From Ferrovum sp. (GTDB lineage Bacteria; Pseudomonadota; Gammaproteobacteria; Burkholderiales; Ferrovaceae), in assembly GCA_010435995.1 (NCBI GenBank), contig JAAGNR010000022.1, forward strand, positions 62,001-126,000: a stretch of DNA of 64,000 nt, given 5' to 3'. Made by a program: the position numbers and the translations under genes. Below the pieces are notes generated by a model. The model was not told the DNA's origin and searched no databases. It saw only the letters and a list, made by a program, of their open reading frames with translations. Each line of letters opens with the position of its first letter. Within the stretch, counting starts at the first letter, position 1. Shown here piece by piece: positions 60,414 through 64,000 of this stretch.

Positions 60414-60766
60414 GAAGCTGGCTGGGCAGTCGCCGCGAGGGAATATTCTCGGGGAGGAAAGTCCGGGCTCCACAGAGCGGGATGCCGGCTAACGGCCGGA
60501 GGTCGTGAGACCATGGAAAGTGATACAGAGACTTAAACCGCCCAAGCATCCCTCACGGGATGACGGCAAGGGTGAAAAGGTGCGGTAAGAGCGCACCGCG
60601 AAGGCGGCAACGCTGACGGCAAGTTAAACCCCATCCGGAGCAAGACCAAATAGGGAAGCAATGGCGTGGCTCGCGCTGCTTCCGGGTAGGTTGCTGGAGC
60701 CTGCAGGCAACTGCAGGCCTAGAGGAATGACTGTCCTCGACAGAACCCGGCTTATAGGCCAGCTTC
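60414..60766 (+). ncRNA. rnpB: RNase P RNA, bacterial class A
   Basis: This is the catalytic RNA that matures tRNA 5' ends. The 5' end GAAGCTGGC pairs with GCCAGCTTC at 60758-60766 to form helix P1. Conserved core blocks are GAGGAAAGTCCGGGCTCCA, GGGTGAAAAGGTGCGGTAAG, AGAGCGCACCGCG, GGAGCAAGACCAAATAGGGA and GACAGAACCCGGCTTAT. A T-rich tract (TTCTTT, then TTTT) directly after P1 suggests termination there. The L15 region lacks an obvious GGT as found in E. coli. It overlaps a small antisense gene by 15 nt. Confidence 0.97.
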
Positions 60767-60922
60767 TTTCTTTTCTGGGATGCTGGGGTTTCCCCCCGCA
60801 CAATTCCGACATTCCCCTCCTCCAGAACCGCAGTGGGGCTTCAAAAATAGAGCGCGAAAGCCAACCACAGCGGCTCCGCCGACAATTGCAATAGTTACCA
60901 GAGTATCCCACGACATGGTCAT
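60752..60922 (-). CDS. FeoB-associated Cys-rich membrane protein (small)
   Basis: A 56-codon gene begins MTMSWDTLVTIAIVGGAAVV and overlaps the feoB stop as ATGA. It has one N-terminal membrane segment (about residues 7-28). A short tail follows with three cysteines, one in PHCGSGGG and two in ECRNCAGG, then a Lys/Glu-rich end. Small proteins of this layout, often called FeoB-associated Cys-rich membrane proteins, follow feoB in many bacteria and may help ferrous iron uptake; their role is unproven. Its last five codons run antisense into the rnpB 3' end. Confidence 0.78.
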   Translation of the reverse strand: MTMSWDTLVTIAIVGGAAVVGFRALFLKPHCGSGGGECRNCAGGNPSIPEKKEAGL

Positions 60923-62790
60923 CCCCCTGTTACCCACAAGGTCACATGATATGTGACAAACGCAGCCAAATAAGCCAAACCGAACAGATAAGCCAGCATG
61001 ATACCGGGAATACGCCAAGCGCCAGTTTCGCGCCGTACCGCTCCCAAAGTTGCCACGCATTGTGGTGCGTAGACATACCAGGCCAGCAATGCCAACGCGG
61101 TAGCCAGACTCCAAGAATGAGCCAGTACGGGGGCTAAGGCATCACTCACACTATTGCCCCCATCGCCCGCCAACGCATAGACCGTGCCCAAAGCACCCAC
61201 AGCCACTTCCCGTGCCGCCATCCCCGGAATCAAGGCAATGCAGATTTGCCAGTTGAAACCAATAGGGGCAAAAAATACCCCGAGAACCTGACCAATCATG
61301 CCGGCAAAACTATGCCGAATGGCAGGATCAGTCAGACCCGCGGGGGCTGGAGGGAAGGCACTCAGGAACCACAATACTACGGTAATAGGCAAGATGATCG
61401 TCCCCGTACGCGTCACGAAGAGGGCTCCTCGCTCTACCAATCCCATCACCAGATTCCGCAGATTGGGAAAGCGGTAGGCCGGAAGCTCCATCATTAAGGC
61501 CTGATATTGATGACGAGCACCATATTTCATGACCAGAGCCACCAGCATGGCAGAAACGATTCCTGCCAGATAAAGGAGAAAAAGTACCACCCCTTGCAGG
61601 TTGAATATCCCTACAACCATACGCCTGGGTATAAATGCCGAAATCAGTAATGCGTACACCGGGAGTCGAGCAGAACACGTCATGAGGGGTGCTATGAGAA
61701 TAGTGGTCAAACGATCACGGCTATTGTGAATGGTTCGCGTCGCCATGATCCCTGGAATGGCGCAGGCAAAACTTGACAGCAAAGGAATAAAAGCCCGTCC
61801 GGACAACCCCACGGATCCCATGACACGATCGAGTAAGAAAGCGGCACGGGGTAAATAGCCCGAATCTTCCAGCGCTAAAATAAAAGCGAACAAAATCAGA
61901 ATTTGGGGAAGAAATATCAGTACGCTCCCGGCCCCCGCCAAAACCCCGTCCGCCAGCAAACTCCGCAGCATCCCCGCAGGCATGAACCGATGTACCCCTT
62001 CGATGGCCAAACCCACCATATTCTTGATGATATCCATGGGCACGGCAGCCCAGGTAAATACCGCCTGAAAGGTAAGAAACAGTACCAACGCCAAAATGAT
62101 CATGCCCCACAGCGGGTGCATGACCACATGGTCGATCCGTTCATTCCAATGGTCATCGCGCTGCGATTCGTCACACGTCACTGCCAGAATATTGCGCACT
62201 TGTGTCTGGATATCCTGCAATTCCGCCGGGGTTGGATCTTTCCATGTAAATATACTGGCAGGCGCTTGAAAAGGGGTGTTCTGATCCATATAATCCACCA
62301 GCGCTGTAGCCCCTCCATTGTCCACCGCGATGGTTTCCACCACCGGCAGTTCAAGGGCTCGTGATAGCGCGGGAACATTGATGATGATACCGTGGCTGCG
62401 TGCCAGATCCATCATATTCAATACCAAAACCAAGGGTCGTCCGAGACGCTTAAGTTCCAGTACCAAGCGCAAATGGAGGCGCAAGTTGGTCGCATCGACA
62501 ACACAGACCAATAACTCCGGAGGGGATTCCCCCTGAAGCTGCCCCAACACGGCACGCCGGGTAATCGATTCGTCCAACGATGTGGGCGTTAAGCTATAGG
62601 CCCCAGGCAGATCAATAATTTGAATGCGTTTGCCACTGGGAACGGTGAGGGATCCTTCCTTGCGTTCAACCGTGACCCCAGCATAGTTTGCCACCTTCTG
62701 GTGACTCCCTGTCAAACGGTTGAACAGAGCGGTCTTTCCGCAGTTTGGCGCTCCCACTAAAGCAGCAATGGACACTGCACGTTGGTTCAT
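60919..62790 (-). CDS. feoB: Ferrous iron transport protein B
   Basis: FeoB is the inner-membrane ferrous iron transporter with a cytosolic G domain. The 623-residue protein has G1 GAPNCGKTALFNRLTG, G3 DLPGAYSL and G4 NMMD, then a GDI-like helical region. The two Gate domains follow with LEDSGYLPRAAFLLDRVMG and FIPLLSSFACAIPGIMATRT, and MTCSARLPVYALLISAF. It is shorter than the 773-residue E. coli protein but within the family range. It overlaps feoA by 4 nt and the small Cys-rich gene by 4 nt. Confidence 0.97.
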   Translation of the reverse strand: MNQRAVSIAALVGAPNCGKTALFNRLTGSHQKVANYAGVTVERKEGSLTVPSGKRIQIIDLPGAYSLTPTSLDESITRRAVLGQLQGESPPELLVCVVDATNLRLHLRLVLELKRLGRPLVLVLNMMDLARSHGIIINVPALSRALELPVVETIAVDNGGATALVDYMDQNTPFQAPASIFTWKDPTPAELQDIQTQVRNILAVTCDESQRDDHWNERIDHVVMHPLWGMIILALVLFLTFQAVFTWAAVPMDIIKNMVGLAIEGVHRFMPAGMLRSLLADGVLAGAGSVLIFLPQILILFAFILALEDSGYLPRAAFLLDRVMGSVGLSGRAFIPLLSSFACAIPGIMATRTIHNSRDRLTTILIAPLMTCSARLPVYALLISAFIPRRMVVGIFNLQGVVLFLLYLAGIVSAMLVALVMKYGARHQYQALMMELPAYRFPNLRNLVMGLVERGALFVTRTGTIILPITVVLWFLSAFPPAPAGLTDPAIRHSFAGMIGQVLGVFFAPIGFNWQICIALIPGMAAREVAVGALGTVYALAGDGGNSVSDALAPVLAHSWSLATALALLAWYVYAPQCVATLGAVRRETGAWRIPGIMLAYLFGLAYLAAFVTYHVTLWVTGG

Positions 62791-63062
62791 GATTCGTCGT
62801 TCCGCGTGACCTTGATGGCTGCAGCTTCGGTACGGCGCAAAGCGAAGGTGGAATTACCCACGCGAACAGCGATGGGATCACCGCTCGGAAAACCGCGCCG
62901 AATAACCCGCAAGTGTTCTCCCGGAACAAATCCCAACTCCACCAAACGGCGCACCCCGTCTTCGCCCAAACGGGAATCGGCACCTTCATCCAGACTTACC
63001 TGGGCAATGATGCCCGATTCCCCTGGGGCAAGGTGAGTAACACGATGGGTCCGAGTTTTCAT
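62787..63062 (-). CDS. feoA: Ferrous iron transport protein A
   Basis: FeoA is a small cytosolic SH3-like protein needed for FeoB function. The 91-residue product shows RLVELGFVPGEHLRVIRRG and DPIAVRVGNSTFALRRTEA, the two conserved strands of the family. It is the first gene of the feo operon. Upstream is a candidate promoter with an imperfect Fur-like palindrome in its spacer (63093-63122). FeoA and FeoB genes are linked by ATGA. Confidence 0.95.
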   Translation of the reverse strand: MKTRTHRVTHLAPGESGIIAQVSLDEGADSRLGEDGVRRLVELGFVPGEHLRVIRRGFPSGDPIAVRVGNSTFALRRTEAAAIKVTRNDES

Positions 63063-63092
63063 GGAGAGACCTAATACGGAGGATTGGTCTCA

Positions 63093-63122
63093 ATATTAAA
63101 CGAGAATGCTTCCTATTTGCAA
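63093..63122 (-). promoter_or_regulatory. Candidate feoAB promoter with a Fur-like element
   Basis: On the minus strand TTGCAA (63122-63117) and TATTA-rich TAATAT (63098-63093) are 18 nt apart; transcription would start near 63086. Within the spacer, 63101-63115 resembles the 7-1-7 Fur consensus at 8 of 14 positions, better in one half than in the other. Iron repression through Fur is plausible but the match is weak. Confidence 0.4.
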
Positions 63123-63129
63123 GCACTAA

Positions 63130-63160: not shown

Positions 63161-63745
63161 TTACTGCAAAAGATCGCCCACCAAAGATTGACGCGTCGGT
63201 TCTGCGACAGGCATTGCCTCATGGGGGTAGGCAGGGTGAGTCACTCCCGCCAGCAGGGAAGCGCCGCGATGCAAGGCGTGTTGTTGTACTAAAGGAACGG
63301 TATAACGCAGAAAATGCACCGCCGAGGTTTTATCCTCGGTTTCCCGTTCCAAATCTTCGTCCGCAATGGCAAACAGCGGCGGAAAACCTTCCACCTGCAC
63401 CCATAATGCACGCTCGATACCCTTGAGCCGGGCCAGCATTTGACCTCGCTCAGCCACATCCGCGTATTCTATGAGTAGAGTGGCCTTCCAGTTGTCCCCA
63501 TCTGGAATAAGTGGGGTATACGCTGCCAATTCGTCCTGAATGGCACTGGACTCGAAAATCTTTTCAATCCGCAACATTTCCTGTACTTGGTAGTGAATGG
63601 TCAGGCGGTCTTCAAACAATAAGGTCAGGTGCTCTCCCACATGAACCGTGCGCAATCGTTTGTGTGCCATGACGCGCGCGCGAAAAGCAGGGCGTTCACG
63701 AGAGTAGGCTTCCAGGGTCCACAAATCTTCGCGAGTCAGCATCAT
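63161..63745 (-). CDS. DUF3501 family protein
   Basis: The 194-residue soluble protein starts MMLTREDLWTLEAYSRERPA and contains FEDRLTIHYQVQEMLRIEKI, ELAAYTPLIPDG and a C-terminal FLRYTVPLVQQHAL stretch. These match DUF3501 as I remember it, a family without assigned function. DUF3501 genes are commonly found next to a rubrerythrin-like and an Fe-S oxidoreductase gene, and the latter precedes it here with an ATGA overlap. The two ATG codons at 63745 and 63742 are both possible; the coupled one is preferred. Confidence 0.8.
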   Translation of the reverse strand: MMLTREDLWTLEAYSRERPAFRARVMAHKRLRTVHVGEHLTLLFEDRLTIHYQVQEMLRIEKIFESSAIQDELAAYTPLIPDGDNWKATLLIEYADVAERGQMLARLKGIERALWVQVEGFPPLFAIADEDLERETEDKTSAVHFLRYTVPLVQQHALHRGASLLAGVTHPAYPHEAMPVAEPTRQSLVGDLLQ

Positions 63746-64000
63746 ACCGGAGCCTCCCCCAAGCCATAGGCACGCCGCAACAGAGTCAAGGGATGGGCGC
63801 GTGCCGTCTGGTCCCCCATTCCTTGAACGATATGACGCGCAGCAATGGGACAATCCGAAGAAACCACATCGGGTTCCGCATCCTTCATGCGTTTGAATAC
63901 TGGGTTACCGATTTTCATGGAAGTATCAAAATATTCTACCTTGACCCCCCAGGTACCATCATGCCCAGAACACCGTTCCACCGTAGTCACCTTGGTTCCC
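63742..64000 (-). CDS. Fe-S binding oxidoreductase, C-terminal part (cut by window edge)
   Basis: About 85 C-terminal residues are visible, including VERCSGHDGTWGVKVEYF and VVSSDCPIAARHIVQGMG. Cysteine-centred segments of this kind occur in CCG-domain (heterodisulfide reductase / GlpC-like) iron-sulfur proteins. The N-terminal ferredoxin part, if present, lies beyond the right edge. It is coupled to the DUF3501 gene by a 4-nt overlap, so the two probably act together in a redox or peroxide-defence role. That role is inferred from the usual neighbours. Confidence 0.7.
   Translation of the reverse strand, partial: GTKVTTVERCSGHDGTWGVKVEYFDTSMKIGNPVFKRMKDAEPDVVSSDCPIAARHIVQGMGDQTARAHPLTLLRRAYGLGEAPV

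Follow-up and report, generated by a model that had tools for sequence, protein, structure and literature searches.

The right end of the window carries a DUF3501 gene between the end of an Fe-S oxidoreductase gene and the ferrous iron uptake genes feoAB. By the window we mean the whole 64,000 nt stretch of Ferrovum DNA that was analysed (C66:62001-126000 of genome G000; the contig is 133,537 bp long and the assembly has 96 contigs and is 87% complete). Which of these genes belong together, and what is their function? A sequence-only reading had described DUF3501 as translationally coupled to a CCG-type Fe-S gene and placed the defining partners, perhaps with a rubrerythrin-like gene next, past the right edge. 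It had also suggested a peroxide or iron-linked redox role. Our analysis indicates that the window genes are probably the downstream part of an rbr-rfo-duf3501 operon encoding a self-contained cytoplasmic hydroperoxide reductase, with feoAB separate. The features are listed in Table 1.

Table 1. Genes at the right end of the window and just beyond it (window positions, unless contig C66 is named).
Feature	Position	Strand	Evidence or remark
DUF3501 gene, third and last of the proposed rbr-rfo-duf3501 operon	63161..63745	-	PF12007; start ATG at 63745
RFO gene, 3′ end (GlpC-like Fe-S oxidoreductase)	63742..64000, on to contig C66:127079	-	4-nt overlap; CCG domain
feoA	62787-63062	-	Pfam
feoB	60919-62790	-	Pfam
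Rubrerythrin (rbr) gene, 139 aa	contig C66:127093-127512, ~1.1 kb past window edge		PF02915, E 4.4e-29
RNase P RNA gene (rnpB), between pyrC and feoB	60414-60770	+	RF00010, 328 bits

The DUF3501 open reading frame encodes 194 aa, of which residues 3-192 match PF12007 in a Pfam scan (E 4.6e-68; 229 bits, cut-off 25). The longest frame listed, which starts with a TTG at 63853 and spans 230 aa, was rejected as the DUF3501 gene because the match begins near the ATG. The overlap with the Fe-S gene arises because the stop codon of the latter, a TGA ending at 63742, sits inside ATGATG. The window includes no more of the Fe-S protein, RFO, than its final 85 aa, and this tail alone matched no Pfam family. 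The full protein on the contig has 445 aa and carries a CCG domain (PF02754, E 4.5e-12, two stretches). The coupling was thus correctly described. Extension of the contig also bore out the expected partner, since a rubrerythrin gene heads the operon. Past rbr there are, in turn, nudH/rppH-like, queE-like, PTPS-domain and queC-like genes. The nudH and que names are presumptive; a Pfam scan of the first three genes shows NUDIX, Radical_SAM (below cut-off) and PTPS domains.

Judged by sequence, the three genes are the aerobic-type rubrerythrin system RBR-RFO-DUF3501, already published by Cardenas et al. (2016; PMC5114695). That study named the Fe-S protein RFO, counted all three genes in 185 genomes and RBR with DUF3501 but without RFO in 25, and described RFO-DUF3501 fusions in Nitrosomonas. 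The operon is no different in gene content: it has a one-domain rubrerythrin, a GlpC-like, presumptively COG0247-type RFO with its CCG domain, DUF3501 and the same kept co-localisation. The rubrerythrin lacks a rubredoxin domain; it contains no Cys, and hence no CxxC and no rubredoxin site. With a score of 132 it misses the NF045767 rubrerythrin equivalog cut-off of 200, and its best PDB matches are short rubrerythrins, including 4DI0, and sulerythrin. 4DI0 was placed in the aerobic-type group by PMC5114695. The same gene association occurs in Acidihalobacter (PMC7760498), OxyR adjoins the system in Sideroxydans (PMC7852563), and the system has been predicted among mitochondrial proteins of a jakobid and in mitochondria of some protists (PMC7050145). 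Apparently new are a palindrome 5′ of rbr that tracks with an Irr-like gene, the exchange of the triad for AhpCF in one slot, and EncFtn-like insertions. None of these was met in the available text of PMC5114695. A literature search that reached few subscription papers showed, among the matches listed, no report of these links for rubrerythrin or DUF3501 with EncFtn, PerR, Irr, AhpF or Ferrovum.

Neighbourhood comparison upheld the view that DUF3501 and the Fe-S gene stay together. RBR, RFO and DUF3501 lay in one order and on one strand at 35 of 40 loci (37 genomes, our own included); the other five were two loci interrupted by contig ends and three orphan DUF3501 copies. The arrangement recurred at 68 of 80 wider named-contig loci, which are the best 80 of 587 and, by their titles, come chiefly from Beta- and Gammaproteobacteria. 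The 12 exceptions comprised eight loci with RFO and no RBR, two with RBR and no adjacent RFO, and two with DUF3501 alone; in eight of the 12, DUF3501 lies no more than 2.5 kb from the 5′ contig end. The locus sets share some places (for example, L035 = L104, L045 = L072 and L050 = L091). Among 112 RFO-DUF3501 pairs, five overlap, 80 are spaced by 0-49 nt, 15 by 50-149 nt and 12 by at least 150 nt. DUF3501 itself was present in 37 of 61 genomes (our own included) and, across the order, in 108 of 250.

RFO and DUF3501 are also fused. DUF3501 is present in 50 of 61 genomes of the G157 genus, and in 33 of these 50 it lies within an open frame of at least 650 aa, so that both proteins share one frame. 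By a motif filter, 19 of 32 loci read passed as fusions, giving 17 distinct proteins. A Met is kept just ahead of the DUF3501 part in 16 of these and absent in L190; hence, separate translation of DUF3501 is possible in the 16. An AlphaFold2 model of the L190 fusion had a pTM of 0.64 and a disordered linker (residues 444-479), and we therefore claim no contact between RFO and DUF3501. L103 and L111, with no RFO beside DUF3501, and L078, with a shortened RFO, were considered as natural RFO-less systems. They were rejected because RFO is found elsewhere in those genomes, as two pieces for L078 and as matches containing one TAA for L103 and L111. At L170 (G230) an apparent deletion, which may be an assembly fault, joins an N-terminal rbr piece to a C-terminal DUF3501 piece.

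The sequence-only reading had counted feoAB into the group. The adjacency is real; the membership did not survive comparison. Directly after DUF3501, feoA was found in none of the 18 family relatives with the triad, and neither FeoA nor FeoB was found at any of the 80 wider loci in fetched flanks of up to 8 kb (at least 3 kb downstream in 66 of the 80). Hence, feoAB was rejected as a functional partner, and the iron link drawn from the neighbourhood is incidental. Instead, the gene after DUF3501 in 14 of the 18 relatives is glmS, in the same orientation; in one it is rnpB, and in three none of the genes searched was found. Reading outward from DUF3501, the order in G001 (L064) is glmS, pyrC, rnpB, feoB, feoA and that in the window is feoA, feoB, rnpB, pyrC, glmS. 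These gene orders fit a separate feoAB unit set beside duf3501 by a local block inversion. Other family members have feoAB and pyrC arranged otherwise. By eye, a Fur-box-like stretch lies between duf3501 and feoA (~63090-63125, minus strand) and suggests separate iron control of feoAB. A short Cys-rich membrane-like ORF (60755-60922, minus strand) overlaps the feoB end; by eye it resembles a FeoB-associated protein, and it has no Pfam match.

What might RFO and DUF3501 contribute? In an alignment of 119 RFO proteins, fifteen Cys columns are invariant throughout. They fall in two N-terminal C-rich motifs (39/42/45/49 and 82/85/88/93), in a first CCG unit (209, 241, 242 and 283) and in a second unit with CSG in place of CCG (341, 370 and 410). 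The protein would thus have two predicted 4Fe-4S sites in its N-terminal part, followed by two units of CCG type: a complete one, and the CSG unit with three conserved Cys. The cluster types are our assumption, by analogy with GlpC and HdrB relatives. The N-terminal 4Fe-4S match is just below cut-off (20.5 versus 22.2 bits). RFO resembles GlpC, with an NF008369 match over residues 77-439 of its 445, but it fails the GlpC equivalog cut-offs (237.4 bits versus 278, and 176.1 versus 279.9) and differs in its second CCG motif. Neither GlpA nor GlpB was seen among the neighbours scanned, and a sequence search of solved structures with RFO gave no match at E 0.001.

DUF3501 has no conserved Cys: there are none in the window protein and none at all in 93 of 139 proteins. 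Its invariant or near-invariant residues include Y14, R32, E45, Y52, Q53, E56, E72, K87, H144, H170 and D191. A first alignment with single DUF3501 rows (15-22% identity, poorly aligned) was left out. An AlphaFold2 model (mean pLDDT 90) matches the solved structure 3FJV along the whole chain, with 53% identity in the Foldseek alignment and a VIA-align Z of 26.7. 3FJV is of the same family and fold, and was deposited as a protein of unknown function with no mechanism. No fold relative stands out beyond it: only the two 3FJV chains reach a Foldseek E of 0.001 or below and the next VIA-align Z is 6.8, a weak value that excludes nothing.

Upstream of rbr is a promoter-like site, TTGACA-17-TAGACT, followed by TTTAGATCGTTTCTAAA. 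Such sites are no more frequent in that stretch than expected by chance (three found versus 2.7). About 12 nt after the −10 hexamer is the palindrome TTTAGA-N5-TCTAAA, hereafter the box, which we take to resemble Irr boxes (ICE). Of 111 distinct 300-nt regions upstream of rbr, 54 contain its core, TTAGA-N5-TCTAA, and 62 do so if one mismatch is allowed; random windows of the same loci gave a mean of 1.18 (maximum 4) and shuffles 0.02. All 19 regions from the family have the core, as do 35 of 92 from outside it. In the whole genome the core occurs once, at C66:127540-127554, against three occurrences of the backward control pattern. Six other genomes of the genus each have it once, also 5′ of rbr, and G007 (73% complete) does not have it.

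Two Fur-family genes are present in the genome. One passes a Fur cut-off. The other, on contig C56, is nearest Irr and IrrA, the best two of nine families listed, at scores below the curated cut-offs (118.9 versus 150 for IrrA and 109.7 versus 170 for Irr); it is our candidate regulator. Box and Irr-like gene track each other across 35 genomes (both in 26, box only in one, gene only in two, neither in six; p 1.1e-4, with a 36%-identical match in G032 scored absent), and do so outside the family (8, 0, 2 and 6, respectively; p 0.007), in Fisher tests that, here and below, treat related genomes as independent. Irr boxes have been reported at mbfA, similar to a rubrerythrin-like protein, and at ccpA, with a peroxide-linked phenotype (PMC3413700). 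An exact box is missing from 57 of the 111 regions (49 when one mismatch is allowed). It is also missing from all nine loci with a close LysR gene, against 54 with a box among the remaining 102 (p 0.003). L043 and L047, where the LysR gene is farther away, also have no box (0 of 11, p 6e-4). The LysR gene was assigned at 11 loci by clustering, of which the nine used have it within ~2.4 kb, and a Pfam scan was made of one, L138. Control through the box is therefore not universal.

Elsewhere, a katG-type gene in G024 is preceded by one further box. Matches overlapping start codons (of a cytochrome-like gene in G009 and G025, and of one gene in G010) were disregarded as probably coding. No target could be named for the boxes in G022:C110, G026:C41/G029:C19, G034 and G035. 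G052 has 115 copies of TTAGA-N5-TCTAA; most among those listed are TTAGACAGGTTCTAA or its complement, and they look like an unrelated repeat family.

The gene order nudH, box, rbr, rfo, duf3501, glmS is found in 14 of 18 family relatives. In four genomes of a sister genus, g3 (93-99% complete and without DUF3501), the order is nudH, box, ahpC, ahpF, glmS, with an IS element between nudH and the box in G016; absence of the triad there is judged by DUF3501. The ahpC and ahpF genes of G009 pass NCBIfam equivalog cut-offs, and AhpF of all four g3 genomes scores >1000 bits against that of G009. Across 61 genomes, AhpF and DUF3501 tend to avoid one another (both in six, DUF3501 only in 31, AhpF only in 14, neither in 10; Fisher p 9e-4). 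Here, AhpF means a match of >590 bits, weaker matches (at most 171 bits) being taken as thioredoxin-reductase-like, and G005 was scored without DUF3501 although its rbr-rfo (L251) sits at a contig end. The avoidance holds within the family (p 0.013) and is weak outside it (p 0.06).

With 13% of the genome missing, our assembly (87% complete) shows no AhpF, no catalase and no KatG-type peroxidase. The last was found in none of the eight genomes of the genus; it was present in 14 of 32 genomes searched, some of them with DUF3501. The triad belongs to other protein families than the thiol peroxidase AhpC and the FAD disulfide reductase AhpF. The use of the same slot and box implies that the triad performs the function of a complete hydroperoxide reductase. 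The slot exchange, the shared operator and the absent scavengers together fit the triad as such an enzyme. The suggested peroxide role is supported, being in keeping with both the literature and the exchange. Among Ferrovum strains, some have been predicted to have rubrerythrin and others different scavengers, with AhpC/AhpF in all of them (PMC4886054), which argues against strict exclusion; the slot exchange was not met in the available text of that paper.

At 10 of 121 loci, in nine genomes, EncFtn-like genes are inserted between rfo and duf3501. The two scanned of these ten, L141:7619-7924 and L142:7696-7989, match PF22277 with 139.5 and 145.4 bits (cut-off 27), and the best solved-structure match of the inserted gene is NE0167 (3K6C). 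Downstream of the triad, L142:8794-10675 (on a contig titled Gallionella) encodes another rubrerythrin together with a flavoprotein that has a rubredoxin-binding domain. At 27 of 115 distinct loci there is a CNP1-like gene downstream of DUF3501 and in the same orientation, within 300 nt in 23; PF08750 was found in the one scanned (L036:6351-6908). Nine orphan DUF3501 copies (L068, L069, L070 and L159-L164) lack RBR and RFO within the ~13 kb fetched. They are 33-49% identical to the window protein and their genomes hold another DUF3501 copy. These nine loci indicate that DUF3501 can have another role. By eye, their neighbours show only shared local synteny in one genus (malate-synthase-like and aminotransferase-like genes). 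At L069, a peroxiredoxin-like gene is ~5 kb from the orphan copy, also by eye.

We propose the following model. RBR, a rubredoxin-less di-iron rubrerythrin, would reduce H2O2 or organic hydroperoxides to water, by analogy with studied relatives. RFO would supply the electrons, in place of the rubredoxin domain fused to classical rubrerythrins. As a non-redox factor, DUF3501 may bridge RFO and RBR or aid loading of the di-iron site. This adaptor or assembly role is the least certain part of the model, and we put it forward tentatively, as more doubtful than not. Transcription probably starts from the sigma-70-like promoter that carries the operator, and the operator is probably bound by the Irr-like Fur-family protein. 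Under such control the operon would likely be switched by peroxide, heme or iron status. In Sulfolobus, an rbr cluster with a glpC-like neighbour is induced by H2O2 (PMC2739297). No assay of RFO or DUF3501 was found in the available text of the literature searched.

Could unrelated genes simply have come to lie together by chance? For feoAB this does seem to be so; for the triad, the order kept at 68 of 80 loci and the gene fusions leave this reading with almost no credence. A distinctly improbable alternative is that the operon serves chiefly iron, with RBR as a ferroxidase or iron store, RFO as an iron-releasing reductase and DUF3501 as an iron chaperone. The EncFtn-like ferritin genes inserted at some loci would suit it, as would a candidate regulator nearest to Irr, an iron regulator family. 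The Pelagibacter RBR, moreover, has been called a putative ferroxidase and its transcript rises on iron limitation (PMC2864753). Against this, slot and box serve ahpC-ahpF in the sister genus and one box precedes a katG-type gene; these encode peroxide enzymes, not iron stores. The adjacency to feoAB, besides, is not kept.

A different division of labour would have ferredoxin or FNR reduce RBR, while RFO and DUF3501 take another step, such as repairing or maturing the di-iron site or damaged Fe-S enzymes. Ferriperoxin, the mutant of which fails to grow in air, has peroxidase activity in vitro with NADPH and FNR (PMC3317640), which means that the donor may be something other than RFO. The orphan DUF3501 copies, and the 25 organisms with RBR and DUF3501 but no RFO (PMC5114695), point the same way. 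Conversely, the RFO encoded elsewhere in the L103, L111 and L078 genomes, and the fusion to DUF3501 in one genus, argue for tight coupling of the triad. We regard this division as rather unlikely and retain the hydroperoxide reductase.

The most far-reaching form of that proposal has several parts. The triad would be a complete AhpCF equivalent, exchanged in place with AhpCF between lineages behind the same operator. A dedicated Irr-like peroxide or heme switch would have its sole exact genomic site here, RFO would represent a novel kind of peroxidase reductase, and DUF3501 would be its dedicated coupling factor. Taken together, these points are plausible, if a little short of probable. The system bears on the electron donor of one-domain rubrerythrins that lie beside RFO, and on the function of DUF3501. 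The slot exchange and shared operator predict that rbr, rfo and duf3501, taken together, should substitute for AhpCF in a laboratory strain that lacks scavengers.
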